Below, piece after piece: positions 3,840-61,890 of a DNA stretch of 64,000 nt. The notes under the pieces were generated by a model that searched no databases, was not told the DNA's origin, and saw nothing but the letters and a program-made list of their open reading frames with translations. Position 1 is the stretch's first letter; each line of letters begins with the position of its first letter. This stretch comes from Gemmatirosa kalamazoonensis (GTDB lineage: Bacteria > Gemmatimonadota > Gemmatimonadetes > Gemmatimonadales > Gemmatimonadaceae). The stretch covers positions 1,348,220-1,412,219 of the forward strand of contig NZ_CP007128.1 in NCBI RefSeq assembly GCF_000522985.1. The letters are read 5' to 3'. A program made the translations under genes and the position numbers.

Positions 3840-5194
3840 GTAAGCGGGATCGAGTCGGGACTCGGGACTCGGGACTCGGGACTCGGGAACTGCTCCCCCC
3901 CCGAGTCCCGAGTCCCGAGTCCCGAGTCCCGATTCGCGGCCTGCGATGGTGGATCATCGGCATGATCTGCCTGGTGACCATCATCAACTACATCGATCGG
4001 CAGACGCTGAGCGTGCTCGCGCCGACCATCCGCGAGCAGTTCGGGATGTCGAACGCGTCGTACTCGCGCGTCGTGACGACGTTCCTCCTCGGCTACACGA
4101 TCTCGCAGGCGCTCTCGGGCAAGGTGCTCGACCGGATCGGCACGCGCGCGGGGTTCCTGCTGTTCGTCAGCGTGTGGACGGTCGCGTCGATGCTGCACGC
4201 GGCGGCGCGGAACGTGGCGCAGCTCTCGGCGTTCCGCTTCGTGCTCGGCATCGGCGAGGCCGGGAACTGGCCGGGCGCGGCGAAGGCGGTGGCGGAGTGG
4301 TTCCCGATCCGCGAGCGCGCGTTCGCGATGTCGATCTTCAACGGCGGCTCGACGATCGGCGCCGTGGTGGCGCCGCCGGTGATCGCGTACGTCGCGCTGC
4401 ACTACGGGTGGCGCTACGCGTTCTTCATCGGCGGGTCGCTGTCGCTCGTGCTGATGACGCTGTGGTTCTTCTTCTTCCGCACGCCGAGCGAGCACCCGCG
4501 GCTGTCGGCGCAGGAGCGCGCGTACATCGCCGCCGGCCAGGTGGAGAGCGGCGACGCGCCGACGGGCGCGCGGCGGCCGTGGCTGTCGCTGTTCCGCCAC
4601 CGGCAGGTGTGGGCGGTCATCGCGGCGCGCTTCTTCACCGACCCGATCTGGTGGTTCCTGATCTCGTGGCTGCCGAACTACCTGAAGTCGGAGCGCGGGT
4701 TCGGGCTGGCGCAGATCGGGCTCCTGGCATGGATCCCGTTCCTGTTCGCCGACGTCGGCAACCTGTCGGGGGGCGCGGCGTCGAGCCTGCTGATCCGCCG
4801 CGGGTGGAGCGTGGACGCGGCGCGGAAGGCGGTGCTGCTCCCGAGCGCGCTGCTGATCCCGTTAGGCGTGGTGACGATCCTCTACACGCACACCGACGCG
4901 ATGGCGATCGCCGGGATCAGCCTCGTGGCGTTCGCGTTCCAGAGCTGGATCGTGAACATCCACACGATCCCGTCGGACACGTTCCCGAAGCAGGACGTCG
5001 GCTCCGTGTTCGGCATCGGCGGCACGGCGGCGGGGATCGCGAGCATGCTCTTCACGCTGCTCGTCGGCTGGGTGGTGGATCGGTTCTCGTACGGGCCGGT
5101 GTACGTGATGGTCGGGGCGATGGCGCCGCTGGCGGCGGTGCTGTTTCTTCTCATCATGCGGCGGATCGAGCGGGTGCGGGAACACGCGATCTGA
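3836..5194 (+). CDS. MFS hexuronate-type transporter (ACS family) with repeat-encoded N-terminus
   Basis: A 452-residue twelve-segment major facilitator. The start is ATG 3836, overlapping the kdgF stop as ATGA. Residues ~5-33 (RDSGLGTRDSGLGTR... then PSPESRVP) are encoded by a family-B inverted repeat, and the first membrane segment starts right after it (GLRWWIIGMICLVTIINYID). No in-frame start codon lies between the element and the first membrane segment, so the element must be translated. The core (NYIDRQTLSVLAPTIREQFG, then the GIGEAGNWPGAAKAVAEWFP motif near residue 140) is typical of the anion:cation symporter group that includes ExuT. The predicted substrate is DEH or another hexuronate in the inner membrane. 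The specific substrate is inferred from the operon. Confidence 0.85.
   Translation: MSKRDRVGTRDSGLGTRELLPPRVPSPESRVPIRGLRWWIIGMICLVTIINYIDRQTLSVLAPTIREQFGMSNASYSRVVTTFLLGYTISQALSGKVLDRIGTRAGFLLFVSVWTVASMLHAAARNVAQLSAFRFVLGIGEAGNWPGAAKAVAEWFPIRERAFAMSIFNGGSTIGAVVAPPVIAYVALHYGWRYAFFIGGSLSLVLMTLWFFFFRTPSEHPRLSAQERAYIAAGQVESGDAPTGARRPWLSLFRHRQVWAVIAARFFTDPIWWFLISWLPNYLKSERGFGLAQIGLLAWIPFLFADVGNLSGGAASSLLIRRGWSVDAARKAVLLPSALLIPLGVVTILYTHTDAMAIAGISLVAFAFQSWIVNIHTIPSDTFPKQDVGSVFGIGGTAAGIASMLFTLLVGWVVDRFSYGPVYVMVGAMAPLAAVLFLLIMRRIERVREHAI
3849..3937. repeat. inverted tandem-unit element, family B (7-bp unit), inside a gene
   Basis: Five CGGGACT units at 3851-3889 and about four reverse-complement units at 3901-3936 flank a short loop AACTGCTCCCCCC. 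The same loop, in opposite orientation, is found in the copy at 59753-59834. The element lies wholly inside the transporter reading frame, directly after its start. Confidence 0.9.
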
Positions 5195-8979: not shown

Positions 8980-9118
8980 CTCCACGTACGAGTGTGCGTT
9001 GGACTGAAGAAGGACTGAAGGAGGACTGAAGAAGGAGAACACCAACAAGAAGTGTTGGTCCTTCTTCAGTCCTCCTTCAGTCCTTCTTCAGTCCTATGGA
9101 AACTCGTACGTGGAGTCG
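8980..9118. repeat. inverted tandem-unit element, family C (11-bp unit)
   Basis: Outer ends CTCCACGTACG and CGTACGTGGAG are inverted. Inside are three GGACTGAAGAA/GGACTGAAGGA units, a small central hairpin ACCAACAAGAAGTGTTGGT, then the reverse-complement units. It fills the gap between two convergent genes (8964 and 9132), where it could act as a bidirectional terminator. Confidence 0.9.
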
Positions 9119-18950: not shown

Positions 18951-20368
18951 CAGTGTGACTCCGGTGTGGTGAGAGTGAGGGCGCGCCACCCGCTGCGCGC
19001 CACCTCGCGGCCTAACGCATCCTCGGCGCGCACCCGCCAGCGGAGCGCGCCCGTGCCCGCGCGCTCGACGAGCACCGGCGGCGCGCGGTACGCGGCGACG
19101 TCGCCGGCGACGAGCGCCTCGAACACCGCCGTGCCGTCGGCGCGCTCGACCTCCAGGCGGTAGCGGCGCGCGAGCGGCACGGGCGTCCACGCGAACGCCG
19201 GCAGCGTGCCCGCCTGCGCCGCCGCGCCGAGCGCGGGTTGGAGCAGCAGGAGCGCACGGCCGCCCGCATCGCTCGCCGCCACGGCGCCGCTGCCCACGAC
19301 GTAGCGCAGCGTCGGCAGCGCGAACCCCGCGACGGCGCCGCTCGTCACGACGCCGCTGCCGGCGCGTACCGCGGCGAGATCCGAGCGCGCATCCGGGTCG
19401 GCGGACGCCTCGACGCGGAACAGCACGAGGTACGTGCCGTCGGCATCGCGCGGCAGCGATGCGGGGTCGGGACCGGGCACGCGCACGCGACCGTTAGGCG
19501 GCAGGAACACGTCGAACCGCGCGAGCGGCGCCCACCGCCGCTGCGTGCCGCGCTGCTCGAGCGGAAGCGACGCCTCCGGCAGCAGGTCCGACTCCGACGG
19601 CGGGTCGTCGCCCGGCCGCACGACCTCCCACCGTCCCTGCAGCCGTCCGGTGCCGGTGTACAGCACGTCGGCGAAGAGCGGCGGCGCGCTGCCGTCGGGC
19701 CCACCCGCCACCGCGACGACGGGCGCGTCGCTGTCGAACGCGAGGCGCACGTCGGTGAGCGCGAGCGGCACGCCGGCGCCGCCGGCGGTGAGACGGCACG
19801 TCACGGCGACGAATACGTCGGGGCCGCCGCGGCGATCCACGAAGCGGCGCACGTAGAAGAACGCCGCCGGCCGCCCCGCCTGTGCGGCCTGCCACGCGCG
19901 CCGCGCCACCGACGGCGGGATCGTCATCACGTCCGTCAGGGCACCGGTGCCGCTCGTGCGCGCGAGATCGAACCGCAGCGGCAGCTGGCCGAACAGCGTC
20001 GACGGATCGCAGCGCAGCCCGACGTCCGGACGCGCGTCGATCAGCTCCCCGCACCAGAACGCCTCCGCCGGCACCTGGTCCGCGGACAGCCCACCGAACG
20101 TGAGGAACACCGTCGTCGCCCCCTGGCTCGCGACGTTCACGCCGGTGGGGCTGACGGCGATCTGCGCGTGCGCCGGGGACAGGACGCACAGCAGCGACAG
20201 GAGGAACGCGATGGACAGGATCTTCTGCTCGGTGGTTCGACAGGATGGACAGGATGAACAGGATGAGAACAACACCAACGGCGCTTTCCTCGGTGTTGGT
20301 CTCATCCTGTCCATCCTGTCCATCCTGTCCAAACCGAAGAGCGACAGCTCCTGTCCATCGCGTCGCAT
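18950..20368 (-). CDS. secreted protein with C-terminal Fn3-like domain and repeat-encoded N-terminus
   Basis: 472 residues from ATG 20368, preferred over 20374 because GGGAG sits at better spacing. Residues ~10-48 are coded by a family-G inverted repeat (LDRMDRMDRM..., then a Cys/Ser-rich stretch); a normal signal peptide follows (ILSIAFLLSLLCVLSPAHA). No start codon lies between element and signal, so the extension is presumably translated. The middle part is unrecognised. The C-terminal ~95 residues (FAWTPVPLARRYRLEVERADG ... LRWRVRAEDALGREVA) look like a fibronectin-III-type fold and resemble the end of the membrane protein at 25501-26172. It is followed by copy 3 of the cysteine family (TGATG overlap). 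Confidence 0.65.
   Translation of the reverse strand: MRRDGQELSLFGLDRMDRMDRMRPTPRKAPLVLFSSCSSCPSCRTTEQKILSIAFLLSLLCVLSPAHAQIAVSPTGVNVASQGATTVFLTFGGLSADQVPAEAFWCGELIDARPDVGLRCDPSTLFGQLPLRFDLARTSGTGALTDVMTIPPSVARRAWQAAQAGRPAAFFYVRRFVDRRGGPDVFVAVTCRLTAGGAGVPLALTDVRLAFDSDAPVVAVAGGPDGSAPPLFADVLYTGTGRLQGRWEVVRPGDDPPSESDLLPEASLPLEQRGTQRRWAPLARFDVFLPPNGRVRVPGPDPASLPRDADGTYLVLFRVEASADPDARSDLAAVRAGSGVVTSGAVAGFALPTLRYVVGSGAVAASDAGGRALLLLQPALGAAAQAGTLPAFAWTPVPLARRYRLEVERADGTAVFEALVAGDVAAYRAPPVLVERAGTGALRWRVRAEDALGREVARSGWRALTLTTPESH
20229..20337. repeat. inverted tandem-unit element, family G (9-bp unit), inside a gene
   Basis: Three GGACAGGAT/GAACAGGAT units at 20239-20266 and the inverse ATCCTGTCC units at 20303-20330 flank a centre with AACACCAAC and GTTGGT arms. 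Outer ends CTCGGTGGTT and AAACCGA are also inverted. The centre resembles that of family C at 8980. It is translated as part of the gene ending at 18950. Confidence 0.88.
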
Positions 20369-36213: not shown

Positions 36214-37871
36214 TGCGTCATACATCCATTGTCGTTCGAGACACCGAGCATGGAGCGTGGAGCGGGCAGCGTGGAGCGCACTTCGCTCGCCACGCTCTCC
36301 GCTCCACGCTCTGCGCTCTCCTGCTCGCGGGCTGCCAGGACCTCGCGGTGACGAACCCGAACGAGCCCGATCGCGCGCGCGCGACGCAGCAGCCGACGTC
36401 GGCCGAGTCGTTCGTGGCGAGCGCGTTCCGCACGTGGTGGCCGGTGGCCGGCCACGACGACTATCCGGCGTGGGCGCTGTCCACCGTCGCGCACGAGATC
36501 ACGTCGGGCTTCGCCGACTTCGGCCAGCTCGAGCCGTCGGCCGAGCCGCGCTCGGCGTGGAACAACAGCCCGGCGAACTCGCGCAACCAGGTGAACCAGG
36601 ATCCCTGGTACGGGCTCTATCGCACCATCTCGTCGGTGAACGACGCGCTCATCTCGATCGACTCGGGGCTCGTCATCGGCGACGCGGCGCGCACGACGCG
36701 CACGCAGGCCGTGGGCAAGTTCATCCAGGGGATCTCGCACGGCTACCTCGGGCTGTACTACGACAAGGCGTTCATCGTCGACGAGAAGCTCGCGCTCGAC
36801 ACGATCACCAAGCCGCAGTTCCATCCGTACCCCGAGGTGATCAAGGCCGCCGTGTCGGAGCTCGACCAGTCGATCGCCGACGCGAACAAGGCGCCGTCGT
36901 TCACGCTGCCGGTCGACGCGTGGCTGTTCCAGGCGATGACGAAGGACCAGTTCGTGCGCCTCGCGAACTCGTTCGCCGCGCGCCTCCTCGCCTACTCGCC
37001 GCGCTCGCGCGACGAGCGCGCGAAGGTGGACTGGAACGAGGTGATCCGCCGCATCGACGCCGGCATCCAGACGGACTTCGCGCCGGTCGCGCAGACGGAC
37101 ATCCTGTGGGACGACTGGAAGCGACTCGTGGCGCGCGTGCGCAGCGGCCCGCCGAGCGACTACGGGCGCCCGAGCTACTGGCTGTTGGGCCCCGCCGACT
37201 CGACGAACGGCTTCATCAACTGGATGAACACGCCGCTCGAGAGCCGGCAACCGTTCCAGATCCGCACGAAGGACCGCCGCATCCAGGGCGCCGGCGGGCC
37301 GGCGACGCCGGGCAAGTACGTCGGCTACCAGCAGGCGACGATCTTCGCCGCGAGCCGCGGCACGTACCGCTACTCGTACTACTACTTCCTGCGCTGGGGC
37401 ACGGGAAACTCGTGGCAGTCGGGCCCGCAGCCGGCGATGACGACGACGGAGATGGACCTGCTGAAGGCGGAGGCGCTCATCCGACTCGGCCGCGCCGCCG
37501 AGGCGGTGCCGCTCATCAACAAGACCCGCGTCGCGAACGGCCAGCTCCCGCCGGTGACGGTGGACGGGCCGCCTAACGAGCCGGGATGCGTGCCGCGCAA
37601 GCTGAACGGCGGGTGCGGCTCGCTGTGGGACGCGCTGCGCTACGAGAAGGGGATCGAGCTCGTGGGCATGAGCGGCGTGACGGCGTTCTTCGACGCGCGC
37701 GGCTGGCAGACGCTGGCCGAGAACAGCTTCACGCAGCTGCCGGTGCCCGGCCGCGAGTTAGGCACCCTGCAGCTCGACCTGTACACGTTCGGTGGCCCCG
37801 GCGGCCAGTCCATCGCGCCGGCGCCGGATCCGGAGAAGTGCCCGGTGACGGGGCTCGCGCGGTGCCCGTGA
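36213..37871 (+). CDS. SusD/RagB-type surface lipoprotein with repeat-encoded signal region
   Basis: 552 residues from ATG 36213, overlapping the susC stop (TGATG). Residues ~12-36 are coded by a family-D inverted repeat, which also forms the n-region of the signal peptide; the lipobox is LLLAGC with Cys-41. The rest is SusD-like: helical TPR-type segments (WYGLYRTISSVNDALISIDSG, FIQGISHGYLGLYYDKAF) and a C-terminal block with MDLLKAEALIRLGRAAEAVPLINKTR and LWDALRYEKGIEL. It would lie over the SusC-like channel and capture ligand outside the cell. Confidence 0.9.
   Translation: MRHTSIVVRDTEHGAWSGQRGAHFARHALRSTLCALLLAGCQDLAVTNPNEPDRARATQQPTSAESFVASAFRTWWPVAGHDDYPAWALSTVAHEITSGFADFGQLEPSAEPRSAWNNSPANSRNQVNQDPWYGLYRTISSVNDALISIDSGLVIGDAARTTRTQAVGKFIQGISHGYLGLYYDKAFIVDEKLALDTITKPQFHPYPEVIKAAVSELDQSIADANKAPSFTLPVDAWLFQAMTKDQFVRLANSFAARLLAYSPRSRDERAKVDWNEVIRRIDAGIQTDFAPVAQTDILWDDWKRLVARVRSGPPSDYGRPSYWLLGPADSTNGFINWMNTPLESRQPFQIRTKDRRIQGAGGPATPGKYVGYQQATIFAASRGTYRYSYYYFLRWGTGNSWQSGPQPAMTTTEMDLLKAEALIRLGRAAEAVPLINKTRVANGQLPPVTVDGPPNEPGCVPRKLNGGCGSLWDALRYEKGIELVGMSGVTAFFDARGWQTLAENSFTQLPVPGRELGTLQLDLYTFGGPGGQSIAPAPDPEKCPVTGLARCP
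36246..36318. repeat. inverted tandem-unit element, family D (7-bp unit), inside a gene
   Basis: GTGGAGC units (GAGCATGGAGCGTGGAGCG...) on the left and CGCTCCACGCTC-type units on the right, with an 11-base loop (CACTTCGCTCG). It is translated within the SusD-like signal region. A second copy is at 60843-60911. Confidence 0.83.
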
Positions 37872-37897
37872 CGTCCGGCTGGACGTCCGGCTGATCG

Positions 37898-37983
37898 ATT
37901 GAACCGCAGAGGACGCAGAGGGCGCAGAGGAGACCCACAGAAAGTGGTTTCCTCTGCGCCCTCTGCGTCCTCTGCGGTTCAAA
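37898..37983. repeat. inverted tandem-unit element, family A, 34-bp perfect stem
   Basis: TTGAACCGCAGAGGACGCAG... (37898-37931) is exactly complementary to 37950-37983. The apical part (CCAC-AGAAA-GTGG) adds a small hairpin. It lies between the convergent susD-like and ggt genes, fitting a bidirectional terminator, though there is no T-run. Confidence 0.93.
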
Positions 37984-37984
37984 T

Positions 37985-39778
37985 TCAGTAGCCCCGCACC
38001 TCGCCGTCGCGCCGCGGATCCGCCGCGCCCACCCAGCGCCCGCCGACACGCTCGATGACGTGCACGCCGCCGAAGCCCATGTCCATCGGCGACATGATCG
38101 TCTCGAAGCCCATGCGGCGCGCCGCGTCGAGCACCGGCTCGGCGAAGCCCATCTCGACGCGGAGCTGCGCGTTCGACGACGGGATCACGCGCGGCACGCG
38201 CAGCGCGGCGAGCGGGTCGAGGCCGTAGTCGAGCGTGTAGACGATCGTCTCCACGACCGCCGGCGGGATCGCCGCCGAGCCGGGCGAGCCCACGACCTCG
38301 CGCACGCGGCCGTGCTCCAGCACCACCGTCGGCGCGATCGTCGACGACGGCACGCGCCACGGCCCGATCGCGTTCGCGCTCGTCTCGCTCCGCGCGAAGT
38401 TCAGCATCGCGGAGTTGAAGAACGCCCCCGCCGCCCACGTGCCGGTGCCGAACGCGAGGCCGTTCGTGTTCGTCACCGACACCGCGTTGCCGTCGGCGTC
38501 GACGATCGAGAGGTGGGTCGTCTCGGACGATTCGGAACTCGGGACTCGGGACTCGGGACTCGGGGGGGACGAGTTCCGAGTCCCGAGTCCCGAGTCCCGA
38601 ACGGCGGCGACCCGCGCGGGGCCGACGGGCTGGTATTCCGCGCACCCGCTCTCCGGCGCGGCGGCGCGGTCCTCCGCCCACGGGTCGCCGGCGGCGAGGC
38701 GCGCGCGCGGCGTCGTGTCGGCGGCGACGGCGGCACGCTCCGCCGCGTACGCCTTGCTCGTGAGCCCCGCCTGCGGCACCGCCGCCTTGTCCGGATCGCC
38801 CACGTACGCGTCACGGTCCGTCACCGCGGCGCGCATCGCGCCGGCGAGCGCGCGGAACGCGGCGACGTCGCGGTGCGGCGCGCCCAACGTCGTTAGGCGC
38901 ACCGGCTCCAGCAGGTTGAGCGTCTCCAGCACCTGCATGCCGCCCTGCGGCGCCGGCGCGGAGAGCACCACGCGCCCGCGGTACGTCGTGCACAGCGGCC
39001 GCTTCCAGCGCGGCGCGTAGCGCGCGAAGTCGTCGAGCGTCGCCGGGTTGCCGCCCGCGTTCAGCGTCGAGACGATCTCCGCCGCCACGGGCCCGGTGTA
39101 GAAGCCGTCGCGCCCCTGGTCCGCGATGCGGCGCAGCGTCGCCGCGAGCTCCGACTGCACCACGCGGTCGCCGACGCGCACCATGTGGCCGCCGGGGAAG
39201 AAGATGCGCGCCACCGGCGCGGGGCCGAGCACCTTCGTCGAGTCCGACTGCAGCTCGCGGATGAGGATCGAGTTCGCGATGAAGCCGTCGGCGGCGAGGC
39301 GGATCGCCGGGCCGAGCACGGTCGCGCGCGGCAGCTTGCCGTACTTCTCGTGCGCCGCGAGCAGCCCCGCGACCGCCCCGGGGATCGCCACGCCGCGCGC
39401 CGCCGCGATGCGCCCCGTGCCGCGCGACCGGAGCGCGGTGTCGGGGCTCGCGCCGGCCGTGCCGTAGAAGTCGACGTAGTCCGCGCGGTGCGCCTGCTGG
39501 TTCCAGATCATCATCCCGCCGCCGGCGCCGATGCCGCTCATCGACGGCTCGACGACGCCGATCGCGAACGTCGCGGCGACCGCGGCGTCGACGGCGTTGC
39601 CGCCCTGGCGGAGCATCTCGACGCCCGCCTCCGCGGCGTACGCGCTGCCCGCGGCGACCATGCCGCGCTCGGCGACGGCGCGCTTGCCGAGGTCGGGGAC
39701 GGCGATGGGCGAGGGCCTCGGGGTGGTGCAGGCGGCGAGGGCGAGCGCGCCGAGGGGGAGGGAGCGGGCGAGGGACAT
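37985..39778 (-). CDS. ggt: gamma-glutamyltransferase with repeat-encoded linker before the cleavage site
   Basis: A 597-residue Ntn-hydrolase precursor with a lipoprotein signal (ALALAACT). Family blocks: RGMVAAGSAYAAEAGVEMLRQGGNAVDAAVAA, GIGAGGGMMIW, GRVVLSAPAPQGGMQ. The autocleavage site is TTHLSIVDADGNAVSVT, making Thr-420 the predicted catalytic nucleophile. Residues ~394-418, directly before it, are coded by a family-B inverted repeat (VRDSGLGTRN ... PSPESRVPSSE). The enzyme cleaves or transfers gamma-glutamyl groups, for example of glutathione, outside the cytoplasm. In known enzymes this stretch forms the flexible end of the large subunit, so the insert may be tolerated. The M20 peptidase nearby could take released peptides. 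Confidence 0.92.
   Translation of the reverse strand: MSLARSLPLGALALAACTTPRPSPIAVPDLGKRAVAERGMVAAGSAYAAEAGVEMLRQGGNAVDAAVAATFAIGVVEPSMSGIGAGGGMMIWNQQAHRADYVDFYGTAGASPDTALRSRGTGRIAAARGVAIPGAVAGLLAAHEKYGKLPRATVLGPAIRLAADGFIANSILIRELQSDSTKVLGPAPVARIFFPGGHMVRVGDRVVQSELAATLRRIADQGRDGFYTGPVAAEIVSTLNAGGNPATLDDFARYAPRWKRPLCTTYRGRVVLSAPAPQGGMQVLETLNLLEPVRLTTLGAPHRDVAAFRALAGAMRAAVTDRDAYVGDPDKAAVPQAGLTSKAYAAERAAVAADTTPRARLAAGDPWAEDRAAAPESGCAEYQPVGPARVAAVRDSGLGTRNSSPPSPESRVPSSESSETTHLSIVDADGNAVSVTNTNGLAFGTGTWAAGAFFNSAMLNFARSETSANAIGPWRVPSSTIAPTVVLEHGRVREVVGSPGSAAIPPAVVETIVYTLDYGLDPLAALRVPRVIPSSNAQLRVEMGFAEPVLDAARRMGFETIMSPMDMGFGGVHVIERVGGRWVGAADPRRDGEVRGY
38531..38601. repeat. inverted tandem-unit element, family B, inside ggt
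   Basis: Three to four ACTCGGG units on the left (from 38536) and CGAGTCC units on the right (to 38601), with loop GGGGGGGACGAGTTC, the inverse of the family-B loop at 3890. It is in frame within ggt. Confidence 0.9.
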
Positions 39779-39876
39779 GTCGCAGCGGGCGAGCGTTGGG
39801 CGAGGCGTGCTACGTTTCCGGGGTCGTACCCACCGGAATACGTGGGGCCGCGCCCGGACGTTCGCCCACCGCCGAC

Positions 39877-40224
39877 ATGGAAGTCCAGATCTTCGGCACG
39901 AAGAAAGACGCCGACACCCGCAAGGCGCTGCGCTTCTTCGCCGAGCGCCGCGTGAAGACCCACTTCGTCGACCTGAACGAGCGCGCCGCGAGCCTCGGAG
40001 AGCTGAAGCGCTTCGCCCAGAAGTTCGGCGCGCAGGCGCTCGTCGACCGCGAGGGGAAGCGCTTCGCCGAGATGGGGCTCCGCACCGCGCTCTACGGCGA
40101 CGAGCGCTGGCTGCAGATCCTCGCCGACGAGCCGCTGCTGCTGAAGACGCCGCTCGTGCGCTTCCAGCACAAGCTCACGTTAGGCGCGAACGAGGCGGAG
40201 TGGAAAGCGTGGGTGGGGAAATGA
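39877..40224 (+). CDS. ArsC/Spx-superfamily thioredoxin-fold protein lacking the active-site cysteine
   Basis: 115 residues from ATG 39877; the frame is open back to 39796, so a longer form is possible. EVQIFGTKKDADTRKALRFFAERRVKTHFVDLNE matches the start of ArsC/YffB-type proteins (given here as the blocks EVQIFGTKKDAD and RKALRFFAE). Where YffB or Spx have a Cys (KNCDT, CxxC), this protein has Lys-Asp. The rest (SLGELKRFAQKFG, then LLLKTPLVRF) fits the family's second half. It is not expected to be a redox arsenate reductase. A regulatory or structural role is possible. The flanking genes do not point to one. Confidence 0.7.
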   Translation: MEVQIFGTKKDADTRKALRFFAERRVKTHFVDLNERAASLGELKRFAQKFGAQALVDREGKRFAEMGLRTALYGDERWLQILADEPLLLKTPLVRFQHKLTLGANEAEWKAWVGK

Positions 40225-44317: not shown

Positions 44318-45058
44318 CTACCCCAGCTCGAACGCCCCCGCCGTCTGCGCGCGGTATCGCCGACTCCACAGCAGCGCCGAGCCGTCGCCGAGCACGATGC
44401 GATAGTCGCCGTGCGACCACGGCTGCAGCTCGCGGATCGCGTCGAGCCGCACGACGTCGGAGCGGTTCACGCGCAGGAACGTCGCCGGATCGAGCCGCTC
44501 CGCCAGCGCGCCGATCGTGCCGCGCACGCGGAACGCGCCGCGCGCCGTGTGCAGCACGACGTAGTTGCGCTCCGCGCGCGCGAGCGCGATCGCGTCCACC
44601 GGCAGCAGATGGGCGCCGCGGTCGTCGTGCACGAGGATGCGCCGCAGGTAGCGGCCCGCCGTCGCGGCGACGAGCGAGGCGAGCGCCGACGGGGCGGCCC
44701 GGCGCGTGCGCGCGCGCTCCACCGCCTCGCGCAGCCGCGCCGGCGCGACGGGCTTCAGCAGGTAGTCGAGCGCGCGCACCTCGAACGCGCGCAGCGCGTG
44801 CTCGTCGTACGCGGTGACGAACACCGTGGCCGGCATGTGGTCGACGCCGACCGCGCCGACGACCTCGAAGCCGTCCATGATCGGCATGCGCACGTCGAGC
44901 AGCACGAGGTCGGGCGCGAGCGCGTCGATCCGCTCGGCCGCCTCGCGTCCGTCCGCCGCCTCGCCGACGACCGCGACGTCGCCCATCGCGCCGAGCAGCC
45001 GCACGAGCCGCCGCCGCGCCGGCGCCTCGTCGTCCGCGACGAGCACCCGGAGCGTCAC
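44318..45058 (-). CDS. LytTR-family response regulator
   Basis: 246 residues from GTG 45058 (GTGA overlap with the kinase stop). The receiver domain has the acidic pair Asp-9/Asp-10, phosphoacceptor Asp-55 (LVLLDVRMPIMDG), the Thr in FVTAYDEHALRAFEV and the Lys in YLLKPVAP. The LytTR DNA-binding domain is at ~140-245 (DAIALARAERNYVVLHTARG, RVNRSDVVRLDAIRELQPW). It is predicted to act as a transcription activator in response to the upstream LytS-type kinase. The TonB receptor gene directly downstream (37-base gap) is the simplest target or operon partner. Confidence 0.93.
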   Translation of the reverse strand: MTLRVLVADDEAPARRRLVRLLGAMGDVAVVGEAADGREAAERIDALAPDLVLLDVRMPIMDGFEVVGAVGVDHMPATVFVTAYDEHALRAFEVRALDYLLKPVAPARLREAVERARTRRAAPSALASLVAATAGRYLRRILVHDDRGAHLLPVDAIALARAERNYVVLHTARGAFRVRGTIGALAERLDPATFLRVNRSDVVRLDAIRELQPWSHGDYRIVLGDGSALLWSRRYRAQTAGAFELG

Positions 45059-46218
45059 GCGAGCGCCTCCGCGCGCAGGTCGTTAGGCACCGCGGCGCGC
45101 GCGGGAATGCGGATCACGACCTCCCAACCGTCGTGCGTGGGGCCGGCACGCATCGATCCGTCGTCGCCGTACAGGAGCTGCAGCCGGCGGGCGGTGGCGG
45201 AGAGGCCGGTGCCGCCGTCGGGCGTCGGGACTCGGGACTCGGGACTCGGCACTCGTGAGGGCGTCGAGTCCCGAGTCCCGAGTCCCGAGTCCCGAACCGT
45301 GAGCACGAGCGTCGCCCCCTCGCGCCGCAATGCCACCGCCACGCGCCCGCGCCCGATGCGCGACACGCCGCCATGGCGCACCGCGTTCTCCACGAGCGGC
45401 TGCAGCACCATCGACGGCACGAGCAGGTCGCCGACGTCGTCGGGCGCGTCGACGGTGACGTCGAGCCGGTCGCCGAAGCGGGCGCGCATCAGCTCGAGGT
45501 ACTGCGCGAGGATCGCCAGCTCGTCGCGCGCCGGCACCTCGTGGGTGTGCGTCGTGCGCAGCGACGTGCGGAGCAGATCCGACAGGCGACCCAGCAGCGC
45601 GTCCGCGGCGTCGACGTCGTCGTACATCGTCGACGAGATGGTGTTCAGCGCGTTGAACAGGAAGTGCGGCTGGAGCTGCAGGCGCAGGTTGCTCAGCTCC
45701 GCGCGCAGCAGGCTGCGCTCGAGCGACGCCGCGCGCCGCTCGCGGTCGCGCTCCGCGAGCACGCTCTCCGCCAGCGCGAGCAGCGCGACCGCCGCGACGA
45801 ACACCAGCACGTCGTTCGCGCCCTCGTATGCGTAGCGCGCCGCGGAGAACGCGTACTCGTACCCGGTCAGCCCGAGCAGCGGGGCGAGCGCGGCGCGCAC
45901 CGCGATCATGAGCGTCGTGTGCACCGCGGAGAGCAGCACGAACCCCGCGAGGTACACGGCGAGCGTGCCGCGTCGCAGCGGACGCGCGAGCGGCCAGCGA
46001 TGCGCGAGCCACGCCATCGCGGCGAGCGGGATCGCGGCGAGCAGCCCGCCCGTGACCTCGTTGAACAGCCGCTCGGCCACGTGCCCCGCGCGCCCGTCGG
46101 CGAGGTCGAGAAAGAGGAAGTACGTCAGCCGCACCACGAACACGCCGACGACGCCGAGCGCGACGCCGCGGCGCAGGGCGCGGGTGCTCAGCAGGCTGCG
46201 GGATCCGGCGGCGCTCAT
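45055..46218 (-). CDS. LytS/YehU-type sensor histidine kinase with repeat inserted at the ATP-lid motif
   Basis: 387 residues from ATG 46218. Four membrane segments lie in the first ~150 residues, followed by a coiled coil and the His_kinase (PF06580) domain with LQPHFLFNALNTISS (His-185), and MVLQPLVENAVRHG as the N-box. Next comes VLTVRDSGLGTRDS, then PSPESRVPTPDGGTGLSATARRLQLLYG. Residues ~307-331 are coded by a family-B inverted repeat, and the DSGLG part of the repeat falls where the DxGxG (G1) motif belongs; GTGLSATARRL is the G2 part. Thus the repeat may supply a working ATP-binding motif. It is coupled to the LytTR regulator. Confidence 0.9.
   Translation of the reverse strand: MSAAGSRSLLSTRALRRGVALGVVGVFVVRLTYFLFLDLADGRAGHVAERLFNEVTGGLLAAIPLAAMAWLAHRWPLARPLRRGTLAVYLAGFVLLSAVHTTLMIAVRAALAPLLGLTGYEYAFSAARYAYEGANDVLVFVAAVALLALAESVLAERDRERRAASLERSLLRAELSNLRLQLQPHFLFNALNTISSTMYDDVDAADALLGRLSDLLRTSLRTTHTHEVPARDELAILAQYLELMRARFGDRLDVTVDAPDDVGDLLVPSMVLQPLVENAVRHGGVSRIGRGRVAVALRREGATLVLTVRDSGLGTRDSTPSRVPSPESRVPTPDGGTGLSATARRLQLLYGDDGSMRAGPTHDGWEVVIRIPARAAVPNDLRAEALA
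45224..45297. repeat. inverted tandem-unit element, family B, inside a histidine kinase gene
   Basis: Four GGGACTC units (45227-45248) and the inverse GAGTCCC units (45266-45294) around a diverged loop (GGCACTCGTGAGGGCGTCG). It is translated in frame in the ATPase domain. Confidence 0.9.
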
Positions 46219-46298
46219 GCCCGGGAGTGTATCACGCGCGCGCCGCGTCGTGAGGGGCGCGGGACGAGCGGGACCAGCGCGGGACGAGCGGCACCGCG

Positions 46299-46697
46299 TT
46301 AGGCGGCGTGCGGCGGCGGCAGCACGAACGTGCGGCGCGCGACGTCGCTCTCCAGCAGCTCGGCCGGATACCACCGCGCGAGGCACCGCCGGTCGAGCAG
46401 CTCCGGCGCGGCGGCGGCGAACGCCGCCCACGTCGCCGCGCCGGTGCACACGCGGCGCTCGGCCACCAGCGCCAGGAACGCGACCGTGATCGTCGCGTGG
46501 TACCGCTCCGGCACGCCCGCGCGCGCGGCCATGCGCCGCAGCCCCGCCGCGTAGCGGGCGAGCGCCTCGTCGAACGGGTGGCGGGCGAGCATCTCGTACG
46601 CGAGGCGCACGTGCGCCGCGTGCGGGAACGTCGCCGGGTCGCGCAGCCCCGCCTCGAACGCCGCGAGCTCCGCGTCCACCGCGTCGGCGTCAGACAT
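46299..46697 (-). CDS. conserved hypothetical protein with His-rich motif
   Basis: 132 residues from ATG 46697. FPHAAHVRLAYEMLARHPFDEA near residue 24 and RYHATITVAFLALVAERR near 65 contain regularly placed His residues, in a helical protein. This looks like a small conserved family, but I do not recognise its function. It overlaps the RHH-like gene by 8 bases (46690-46697), so the two are probably co-translated. The TAA stop lies in a GCCTAAC word. Confidence 0.68.
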   Translation of the reverse strand: MSDADAVDAELAAFEAGLRDPATFPHAAHVRLAYEMLARHPFDEALARYAAGLRRMAARAGVPERYHATITVAFLALVAERRVCTGAATWAAFAAAAPELLDRRCLARWYPAELLESDVARRTFVLPPPHAA

Positions 46698-55896: not shown

Positions 55897-56066
55897 TTGA
55901 ACCGCAGAGGGCCGCCGAGAACGACAACGGCCTTCTTACCACAGAGGACACGGAGGACACGGAGGAAACGAACAAGACGTGGTTCTCCTCCGTGTCCTCC
56001 GTGTCCTCCGTGGTTCAACACGAAGAGGCAGTCCTCTGCGGCCCTCCGCGACCCTCTGCGGCTCAA
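55897..56066. repeat. composite inverted repeat: family H nested in family A
   Basis: Outer arms TTGAACCGCAGAGGGCC (55897) and CGACCCTCTGCGGCTCAA (to 56066) are family A. Inside is a complete second element with 9-bp GGACACGGA units: ACCACAGAGGACACGGAGG (55938) and CCTCCGTGTCCTCCGTGGT (to 56014), with centre GAAACGAACAAGACGTGGTTCTC. It fills the gap of a convergent gene pair (55863 and 56103). Confidence 0.9.
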
Positions 56067-57223: not shown

Positions 57224-57319
57224 GCACGACTCCACGTACGTGTCTCTGGAGGACTGAAGAAGGACTGAAGAGGGACTGTCCTCCTTCAGTCCTGCCGAAA
57301 CTCGTACGTGGAGTCGTGC
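57224..57319. repeat. inverted tandem-unit element, family C
   Basis: GCACGACTCCACGTACGTG and CTCGTACGTGGAGTCGTGC ends enclose two GGACTGAAGAA-type units on the left and CTTCAGTCC units on the right. It lacks the central loop present at 8980 and 58958. It runs over the last ~11 codons of the ABC-F gene ending at 57286. Confidence 0.9.
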
Positions 57320-58957: not shown

Positions 58958-59099
58958 GGACTCCACGTACGTGTTTCTGGAGGACTGAAGAAGGACTGAA
59001 GGAGGACTGAAGAAGGAGAACAACGAAAACTGGTGTCGGTCCTTCTTCAGTCTCTCTTCAGTCCTTCTTCAGTCCTACGAGAGCTCGTACGTGGAGTCC
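58958..59099. repeat. inverted tandem-unit element, family C
   Basis: GGACTCCACGTACGTG and CTCGTACGTGGAGTCC ends. Three GGACTGAAGAA-type units, the centre GAGAACAACGAAAACTGGTG and three inverse units lie inside. It is 20 bases upstream of the ABC-F start and overlaps the last ~17 codons of the phosphatase gene. Confidence 0.92.
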
Positions 59100-59752: not shown

Positions 59753-59834
59753 TATCGGGACTCGGGACTCGGGACTCGGGACTCGTGGGGGAGCAGTTCC
59801 CGAGTCCCGAGTCCCGAGTCCCGAGTCCCGATAG
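59753..59834. repeat. inverted tandem-unit element, family B, in a divergent promoter gap
   Basis: TATCGGGACTCGGGACTCGG (59753) on the left pairs with CGAGTCCCGAGTCCCGATA on the right (to 59834). Loop GGGGGAGCAGTTCC is the reverse complement of the 3849 copy's loop, so this copy lies in the opposite orientation. It occupies most of the 102 bases between divergent start codons. Confidence 0.92.
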
Positions 59835-59844
59835 ATTCTCGGGC

Positions 59845-61890
59845 ATGACCCAGCTCGCCATCTCCAACGTGGCCGTCGAATTCGGGGCGACCACGCTGTT
59901 CCAGGACATCACGTTCACCATCGGCGCCGGCGACCGGTGGGGCGTCATCGGGCGCAACGGCACCGGCAAGACGACCCTGTTCAAGCTCCTCACGGGCGAG
60001 CTCCAGCCGTCGCGCGGCCAGATCGCCCGGCAGCCCGGCGTGCGCGTCACGCTGCTCGAGCAGCACCGCGACTTCGGCGGCGCGACGACGGTGTGGGAGG
60101 CGGTGGCCGGCGCGTTCGGGCCGCTGCTCGCGCTCGAGCGCTCGCTCGCCCAGCAGGCCGACGCGCTCGCGCACACCCACGACGACTCGGCGATGGAGCG
60201 CTACGGGCGCGATCTCGAGCGGTTCGAGCGCGAGGGCGGCTACACCTACGCCGCGCGCGTCGATGCGGTGCTCGACGGGCTCGGCTTCGATCCCGACGGC
60301 GCGCGCACGCGGCTCCTCGCCACGCTCTCCGGCGGCGAGCGCGGGCGGGTGGGGCTCGCGCGCCAGCTCGTGCTCCCCGGCGAGGTGCTGCTGCTCGACG
60401 AGCCGACGAACCACCTCGACCTCGAGACCACGCGCTGGCTCGAGGGATGGCTGCAGGGCACCGACCGCACCGTGGTCCTCGTCAGCCACGACCGCGCGTT
60501 CCTCGCCGCCGTCGTCGACCACGTGCTGCACTTCGAGGGCGGCTCGGCGACGCCGTACGTCGGCGGTTACGAGGCGTTCGTGCAGCAGCGCGAGGAGCGG
60601 CGTCTCGCGCAGCAGCGCCAGTTCGACAAGCAGTCGAAGGTCGTCGCCGCCGAGGAGGATTACATCCGACGCAACATCGCCGGGCAGAACTCCAAGCAGG
60701 CGAAGGGGCGCCGCAAGCGCCTCGCGCGCATGGCACGCCTCTCCGCGCCGATCGGCGACGAGGCCGTGATGGCGCTGCGCCTCGAGATCGCCGACCGCGG
60801 CGGCGACCAGGTCATCGTTGCCGAGAAGGCAAGCGTGGGAGTGCCCTCCACGCTCCACGCACCACGCTCCACGCTCGCTCGGCCCGAGCGTGGAGCGTGG
60901 AGCGTGGAGGGATCTCGGATCCTCATCGAGGACTTCAGCGTCCGCCTAACGCGCGGCGAGGTGGTCGGCTTCATCGGGCCGAACGGGGCGGGGAAGTCCA
61001 CGCTGCTGAAGGTCATCGTCGGCGAGACCGGGCCGCTCGCCGGGCAGCTCCGCGTCGGCGACTCGATCCGAGTCGCGTACTACAGCCAGAACATGGCGCA
61101 GCTCCCGCTCGACCGCACGTTGTACGAGGTCATCTCCGACCTCCGTCCGCTCTGGGAGCGTCGCCTCGTGCAGGGGCACCTCGGCCGCTTCGGCTTCTCG
61201 GGCGACGAGGTGCAGCGGCGCGTCGGCACGCTCTCCGGCGGCGAGCGGGCGCGCGTCGCGCTCGCCGCGATGATGCTCACGCGCGCGAACTTCCTCGTCC
61301 TCGACGAGCCGACGAACCACCTCGACGTGGAGAGCATCGAGGCGCTCGAGGACGCGCTCGACGACTACGAGGGGACGGTGCTGCTCGTGAGCCACGACCG
61401 CGCGCTGCTCCGCGCGCTCGCGACGCAGGTGTGGGTGCTGCACGACCGTCATGTCACGGTGTTCGACGGCTCGTTCGAGGAGTGGGAGACGGCGTCGAAG
61501 GAGCGCGAGCACGCCGCCGCCGTGCATGCCGCCGAGGAGGAGGCGCTCCGCCGCGTGAAGGAGCGCGAGCGGATGGAGCGCACGCGTCGCGAGGCCGAGG
61601 CGCAGGCCGTGGCGCCGAACGACAGGCGCGGCGTCGAGCGCGACCAGCGCCGCGCGGCGCGCGACGCGCAGAAGCGCGTGGAGCAGAGCGAGCGCCGCAT
61701 CGCCGAGCTGGAAGCCAAGGTCGCCGCGCTCACCACGGCGCTCGACGATCCCGCGCTCTACGGCACCCCCGACGGCGTGCGGAAGGCGGCGGATCTCGGG
61801 AAGTCGCTCGACACCGCGAAGGCGGCGCTCGACGCGGCACTGGAAGAGTGGACCGCGGCGACCGAAGCGGTGGAGTCGAGCTCCGTCTGA
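59845..61890 (+). CDS. ABC-F family ATPase (copy 2) with repeat-encoded linker insert
   Basis: 681 residues from ATG 59845. The first ABC domain has GRNGTGKTTLF and LSGGERGRVGLARQL with DEPTNHLD, followed by a Gln/Arg-rich linker (QQREERRLAQQRQFDKQSK, NSKQAKGRRKRLARM). The second ABC domain has GPNGAGKSTLL, LSGGERARVALAAMM and DEPTNHLD, and a C-terminal coiled coil (~570-680) ends the protein, the Uup/YheS-like plan. Residues ~333-356, between linker and second ABC domain, are coded by a family-D inverted repeat (VPSTLHAPRSTLARPERGAW). The insert is in frame and at a domain border. Probable translation factor. Confidence 0.93.
   Translation: MTQLAISNVAVEFGATTLFQDITFTIGAGDRWGVIGRNGTGKTTLFKLLTGELQPSRGQIARQPGVRVTLLEQHRDFGGATTVWEAVAGAFGPLLALERSLAQQADALAHTHDDSAMERYGRDLERFEREGGYTYAARVDAVLDGLGFDPDGARTRLLATLSGGERGRVGLARQLVLPGEVLLLDEPTNHLDLETTRWLEGWLQGTDRTVVLVSHDRAFLAAVVDHVLHFEGGSATPYVGGYEAFVQQREERRLAQQRQFDKQSKVVAAEEDYIRRNIAGQNSKQAKGRRKRLARMARLSAPIGDEAVMALRLEIADRGGDQVIVAEKASVGVPSTLHAPRSTLARPERGAWSVEGSRILIEDFSVRLTRGEVVGFIGPNGAGKSTLLKVIVGETGPLAGQLRVGDSIRVAYYSQNMAQLPLDRTLYEVISDLRPLWERRLVQGHLGRFGFSGDEVQRRVGTLSGGERARVALAAMMLTRANFLVLDEPTNHLDVESIEALEDALDDYEGTVLLVSHDRALLRALATQVWVLHDRHVTVFDGSFEEWETASKEREHAAAVHAAEEEALRRVKERERMERTRREAEAQAVAPNDRRGVERDQRRAARDAQKRVEQSERRIAELEAKVAALTTALDDPALYGTPDGVRKAADLGKSLDTAKAALDAALEEWTAATEAVESSSV
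60843..60911. repeat. inverted tandem-unit element, family D, inside an ABC-F gene
   Basis: CCCTCCACGCTCCACGC-type units on the left and GAGCGTGGAGCGTGGAG units on the right, with loop CTCGGCCC. It is translated in frame in the ABC-F gene. Confidence 0.88.

Follow-up and report, generated by a model that had tools for sequence, protein, structure and literature searches.

In-frame palindromic elements of prokaryotic genes are best known from Rickettsia, and their existence in prokaryotes beyond Rickettsia is called conceivable in the available part of one review of MITEs (PMC10969869). Other points of reference, each drawn from the accessible portion of its source, are (i) PARCELs, another coding palindrome (PMC2996958), (ii) intragenic REPs, for which flexible linkers or loops have been suggested (PMC3733652), and (iii) the P-segment of E. 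coli gamma-glutamyltransferase (GGT), which flips out after processing (PMC8062742). The genome of Gemmatirosa kalamazoonensis KBS708 consists of a chromosome of 5,312 kb plus three additional replicons (PMC3974934). A 2024 study in mBio reports 471 repeats on this chromosome, most of which fall into two short classes (90 bp and 150 bp); the portion of it available gives no heptamer architecture, in-gene reading, or linker placement, features that are described for the repeats treated here (PMC11237797). A literature search, chiefly of open-access papers, found none on intragenic palindromic repeats of Gemmatimonadota or on the repeat sequence itself.

The present analysis concerns a stretch of 64,000 nucleotides of the same chromosome (NZ_CP007128.1, positions 1,348,220 to 1,412,219), hereafter the window, in which a hairpin repeat encodes part of a GGT-fold protein just ahead of its predicted autocleavage site. 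This stretch of the gene is, in all likelihood, one copy of a lineage-expanded hairpin repeat that can reside in genes without disrupting them and is tolerated here in an already long, disordered, and variable linker.

The GGT-fold gene lies on the reverse strand (37985..39778) and its open reading frame encodes a PF01019 (Ntn-hydrolase; MEROPS T03) protein of 597 amino acids. In a profile search the protein scores 401.4 bits against PF01019, with a curated cut-off of 27, and residues 54-592 are covered. T420, whose codon occupies 38519..38521 on the reverse strand, corresponds in alignment to the first residue of GGT small chains with solved structures, begins the TTH motif of the small-subunit N-terminus (T420-T421-H422), and is invariant across 51 aligned sequences; it is the predicted autocleavage nucleophile. 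The AlphaFold model (51 sequences; the alignment drew on 50 of 80 relative loci, mostly classical GGTs from several phyla) has a mean pLDDT of 84 and a pTM of 0.87. Its top PDB match is the T399A precursor of B. licheniformis GGT, followed by the E. coli T391A precursor. The predicted fold is confident outside the linker, pLDDT falls below 50 for residues 384-415, and a strand starts at residue 420. All 99 family genomes, this one included, contain a homologue (E 0.001). That a repeat was picked up by a gene already decaying into a pseudogene is very improbable. In favor of such decay are the wealth of repeats in the genome and the 25 elements, among the 38 heptamer elements sampled, that did not count as lying in an intact frame; against it, a single open frame crosses both subunits, the PF01019 match is full-length, the nucleophile is invariant, the codon signal keeps the same frame on either side, and the modeled fold is confident beyond the linker.

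Arg114 of the E. coli enzyme (EcGGT) is the residue that binds the glutamate alpha-carboxylate. At the equivalent position, Tyr is found in the 597-residue protein and in 30 of its 32 relatives L032-L063 (with one Met and one gap), whereas 75 of 77 contrast proteins (L064-L140) have Arg. Because this equivalent is Tyr, the protein has the fold of a gamma-glutamyltransferase but perhaps not its activity or substrate; the alignment points to a clade that lacks the glutamate-binding Arg and for which the label “GGT” may denote the wrong activity. The group formed by the window gene and L032-L063, nearly all of it from Gemmatimonadota, combines Tyr in place of the substrate-binding Arg with long linkers, and possibly performs a different activity.

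The repeat-encoded stretch that a sequence-only reading had noticed before the autocleavage threonine is real. At positions 38531..38601, two 32-nt arms built of GGGACTC units in tandem pair with 94% complementarity around a loop of 7 nt, giving an inverted repeat of 71 bp. The window contains 24 occurrences of CGGGACTCGGGACTC with at most one mismatch where chance would give 0.04, and the RNA fold predicted for 38500-38625 reaches −80.7 kcal/mol (z = −6.7). The repeat had been placed at 38519-38601, an extent that also includes the Thr codon. By codon count the element is in frame and encodes the 24 Ser/Arg/Pro-rich residues V393-E416, which are followed by S417-S418-E419 and then T420; adjacency to the threonine stands, with a gap of three residues rather than the two initially proposed.

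Rfam yields 0 matches at the gathering threshold in 37800-39900, by which a known RNA family at the hairpin is ruled out. An alternative reading is that the hairpin works as RNA or DNA, through mRNA stability, pausing, polarity, or chromosome structure, and that its translation is incidental. This reading is unlikely. It draws on the very stable predicted RNA hairpin, with the energy and z-score given above, and on the 25 of 38 sampled copies not counted in genes; against it stand the unconserved loops, the absence of a T-run after the hairpin on the coding strand, and the Rfam result.

Within the protein, the element falls in the linker between Trp367 and Thr420 (residues 368-419; 38522..38677 on the reverse strand), which by residue count spans 52 residues, is equivalent to the P-segment, and is mostly without a confident fold. 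The proposal that the insert occupies a tolerant C-terminal tail of the large subunit is supported by the behavior of the P-segment in E. coli GGT, as given in the available text of PMC8062742. The same linker has 38 residues, free of repeats, in the four nearest relatives (L032-L035, 59-62% identity). The gain of 14 residues compares with an element of 24, so that approximately 10 residues of ordinary linker are missing. Over all 32 relatives (L032-L063) the Trp-to-Thr stretch varies from 37 to 65 residues with a median of 46, and none of four repeat peptides searched in these linkers is present. The linker of the GGT-fold protein is therefore naturally long and variable, and this copy is no outlier. 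Five of the 32 relatives have linkers of at least 52 residues (52-65), all repeat-free, which rules out a linker-length outlier and leaves unsupported the idea that the insert makes the linker unusual. Equally long repeat-free linkers in several normally processing GGTs had been named beforehand as the finding that would refute the sequence-only reading; as far as length goes, these five relatives are that finding.

The genome encodes five PF01019 genes, all of which match in a profile search. In one of them, a second GGT-fold paralogue (G000:C2:903586-905247), the corresponding linker contains an in-frame hairpin that belongs to the nonamer family (CGCAGAGGA), reads RTQRTQ...SSASSA, and is separated from the Thr by 24 residues. 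The anchor-to-Thr length is 84 residues, and 20 orthologue loci span 64-107 (a set from which the L174 row was left out and in which L219, L220, and L229, with a normal linker and Thr, were kept); by eye, none of the 20 shows a repeat peptide. The remaining three PF01019 genes contain none of the four repeat peptides searched. Elements therefore precede the Thr in two of the five genes. The search for orthologues with an element at the same spot, which the sequence-only reading had suggested, yielded no orthologue; its counterpart is this same-genome paralogue, with the hairpin of another family in its linker.

These observations bear on whether the element is kept as a tuner of self-processing, its 24 residues beside the scissile bond altering the rate of Thr-420 attack. 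The insert ends three residues ahead of the predicted nucleophile, an element occupies the linker in two of the five PF01019 genes, and autoprocessing of B. licheniformis GGT is altered by deletions in a 14-residue extra sequence that ends its large subunit and by changes of the residue before the Thr, according to the accessible part of a review (PMC8062742). Such tuning is nevertheless improbable. Repeat-free linkers of at least 52 residues exist in 5/32 of the clade, the element of the second paralogue sits 24 residues from its Thr in a linker whose length is within the range of its 20 relatives, and the heptamer element also occurs in many proteins without known self-cleavage. Moreover, the Thr is directly preceded by a Glu (Glu419), just as in each of the four nearest relatives, and the matching residue change in E. 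coli GGT is reported to be without effect (PMC8062742, available text). The claim that the insert alters maturation is thus unsupported by the linker lengths and by Glu419; an effect on maturation is possible, and nothing observed requires one. The preferred reading is that of a tolerated repeat copy: the heptamer copy would have entered a linker whose length, disorder, and variability predated it, and would have survived because the end of the large subunit is under no constraint to stay the same. Its effect on the enzyme is probably small; it would be selectively neutral and presumably leaves self-processing normal.

The repeat families extend far beyond this gene. The genome comprises 7,479,215 bases in four contigs at 73% GC, with a chromosome of 5,311,527 bases. 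Across its 7.48 Mb, GGGACTCGGGACTC is matched 314 times on the forward strand and 275 times on the reverse, while a reversed-pattern control has 0, and what had been called a “family-B element” is accordingly confirmed as a genome-wide family. The 21-mer GGGACTCGGGACTCGGGACTC has 398 matches here; it is present in four of 99 family genomes, the other three with 1-2 matches each, and in three of 395 phylum genomes, a sample that overlaps the family set, the two others with 2-3 matches. On these counts the heptamer family is expanded in this lineage. A 56-nt core of the GGT-gene copy recurs exactly elsewhere (L147, about G000:C2:447,973), and its loop-spanning 26-mer is found at seven genomic places with at most one mismatch, two of them exact. 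Movement appears to proceed by copying. Loops differ widely among heptamer elements, and the family is therefore unlike a simple clonal transposon. By eye, over 42 clusters, a typical element ends TCGGGACTC...GAGTCCCGA, not GTAG or CGTC, and no target-site duplication is evident in the 12-nt flanks. The RAYT transposase PF01797 has 0 matches in the genome at E 0.001 (the control was positive in 5/14 genomes), which rules out a RAYT-driven REP.

Several other repeats populate the window. Further heptamer elements lie at 3855..3932, whose two flanks share a coding strand but differ in frame, and at 59755..59831, whose flanks code on opposite strands; a nonamer (CGCAGAGGA) hairpin element occupies 37899..37982, just downstream of the GGT-fold gene. 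A third family, with the unit CGTGGAG, forms a degenerate hairpin at about 36245-36320 that appears to encode the signal-peptide-like N-terminus of a lipoprotein, SusD-like by eye; GCGTGGAGCGTGGAGCG of this family has 122 + 91 genomic matches. Long tandem-unit hairpins of other sequences are present at 8980-9115, 20239-20329, 55938-56014, 57224-57319, 58981-59076, and 60844-60911. No frame of the six is open in the hairpins at 8980 and 58981, and every one is open in those at 55938 and 60844. Outside the window, one heptamer element (L142, G000:C2:138450-141450) has ~25 tandem copies in one arm only, an array that suggests growth by slippage.

How often the heptamer element is translated was assessed on 38 elements: 34 on 32 stretches, taken among the matches listed for approximately the first 3.0 Mb of the 5.3-Mb chromosome, and four in the window. 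Both arms are present in 37. An element counted as in-gene when both flanks were coding (threshold 0.12 per codon), on the same strand and in the same frame, and the frame was open through the element. By this definition 13 of the 38 are in frame inside genes; one of these has just a single array and lacks the inverted partner. The flanks are coding on the same strand for 27 elements, and 17 of these keep the same frame on both sides (p = 0.0015 against the one third that flanks from separate genes would give); 13 of the 17 are open throughout. The in-gene count leaves out L142, L146, L167, and L168, whose flanks agree in frame but which have a stop codon at the element or close to it. The window element at 45225 and L172, each with one flank just under the coding threshold, are likewise not among the 13, and L170 has no cluster of 30 nt or more. 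Compared with 619 of 1000 random positions, a baseline drawn from the window only, 13/38 is a low proportion (p = 0.001); genic copies are therefore depleted, and there is selection against genic copies of the heptamer element. The nonamer family is found in genes less often still (3/29, from most but not all listed places, versus 13/38; p = 0.04).

Many in-frame copies reside in linkers. Of 17 in-frame elements (15 heptamer, two nonamer), 12 lie outside the listed Pfam stretches against 5.5 expected (p = 2e-4), where the Pfam table holds best stretches only, “outside” is uncertain for L141 and L151 (several stretches), and dnaA supplies two of the 17. This set includes the window element at 45225 and L172, and excludes L190, an open-frame nonamer element without a Pfam match. 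The five elements inside Pfam stretches are those of the two GGT-fold linkers, MutS, GvpL/F, and the ATP-binding domain of the window kinase. According to Pfam, the heptamer hosts are a hybrid histidine kinase, a protein kinase, an SLBB export protein, MutS, an SPOR protein, GvpL/F, DnaA (two elements), a family-B DNA polymerase, an Lhr-type helicase, an FAD/FMN oxidoreductase, a methyltransferase-MTHFR fusion, a MacB-type permease, the GGT-fold protein, and the window kinase, and the nonamer hosts are the second GGT-fold protein and a double ArsA ATPase. In dnaA (L154, G000:C2:1208100-1211900), the hairpin lies between the N-terminal domain and the ATPase domain, and a single array lies between the latter and the DNA-binding domain.

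The tolerance of genes for this element has a simple sequence reason. Because seven is not a multiple of three, a tandem heptamer encodes one stop-free heptapeptide in all three frames, namely GTRDSGL, or ESRVPSP on the opposite strand; tolerance would then require solely that the net length change be a multiple of three. Host genes enter the repeat in different phases, and their translations share the RDSGLGTR and ESRVPSP themes, whole or partial. All six frames are open in 27 of 38 heptamer elements, compared with 5% of shuffled versions and 23% of random 77-mers from the window, and in 18 of 29 nonamer elements. At like GC content, ~85% of heptamers and ~70% of nonamers are expected to be stop-free, and the repeat sequence therefore need not have been chosen for openness. 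Frame openness accounts for tolerance, not for the excess of heptamers over nonamers in genes.

Whether the element inserts into or replaces host sequence was addressed by length in three hosts. The net gain relative to close relatives is +14 residues in the GGT-fold protein, +3 to +11 in the window kinase, and +4 to +5 in the methyltransferase-MTHFR fusion. In all three it is below the ~24 residues that an element encodes, and insertion may therefore not have been clean; the small gains could reflect target DNA lost when the element arrived, trimming afterwards, or an ancestral linker of greater length. In the methyltransferase-MTHFR fusion, the stretch with the ~24-residue repeat measures 67 residues versus 62-63 in the two nearest orthologues (79% identity), and 56-73 over all 15 relatives.

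The window kinase, a LytS-type histidine kinase, is encoded by an open frame on the reverse strand (46689..45058) with a heptamer element in its ATP-binding domain (45225..45295). The element encodes RDSGLG exactly where the solved kinase 6swj has RDNGVG. D[DN]G, the G1 ATP-binding box, occupies this position in 15 of 18 readable kinase orthologues, and the stretch from the G1 Asp to GTGL comprises 26 residues versus 23 (L246) and 15 (L247) in the two nearest orthologues. Judged by this alignment, the repeat seems to supply a catalytic motif of the kinase. A more far-reaching reading, which we regard as doubtful, is that the heptamer hairpin is a frame-blind linker-swapping element that takes the place of parts of a disordered linker instead of just lengthening it, its peptide having become functional in some hosts (the kinase G1 box and possibly the GGT pre-cleavage tail). 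Were it true, the same Ser/Arg/Pro-rich peptide, read in any frame, would be distributed across replication, repair, signaling, and other enzymes of one bacterium.

With or without such a role, one peptide in many interdomain linkers constitutes a natural set with which linker tolerance, and the tail beside a self-cleaving bond, can be tested directly. The locus provides a clear case of in-frame palindromic elements in a GC-rich soil bacterium, with repeat-free relatives for comparison, and its 7-nt unit, which reads alike in three frames, offers a plain explanation for their tolerance.

Among known systems, of which the sources cited below were each available in part, the 14-residue extra sequence of Bacillus GGT resembles the insert in comprising residues just ahead of the cleavage Thr, with an effect on processing there (PMC8062742); it is a feature of Bacillus GGTs, whereas the insert described here is repeat-derived and was seen in one genome. 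MITEs (Correia, ERIC, RUP) are likewise small inverted repeats, some with open frames fused to genes (PMC2229807), but no transposase partner was found here in a search for RAYT. REPs of the GTAG and CGTC superfamilies are high-copy palindromes, some of them intragenic, notably in replication and repair genes (PMC3733652), and hosts here include dnaA, mutS, a B-family polymerase, and an Lhr-type helicase; they differ in that this genome has no RAYT (PF01797) match and its elements end TCGGGACTC rather than GTAG/CGTC. The rickettsial palindromic elements (RPEs) share the most with the present families: short hairpins of several families, in frame in unrelated conserved genes, each with a recurring peptide (PMC10969869, PMC2229807). 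An in-frame palindrome in many unrelated genes is found here as well, in 13 of the 38 heptamer elements sampled. The rickettsial elements measure ~105-150 bp, whereas those of this 73% GC Gemmatimonadota genome have arms of tandem 7-mers or 9-mers and variable loops. In its organization the heptamer element works like an RPE, and it adds a feature of its own, the same peptide in all three frames.
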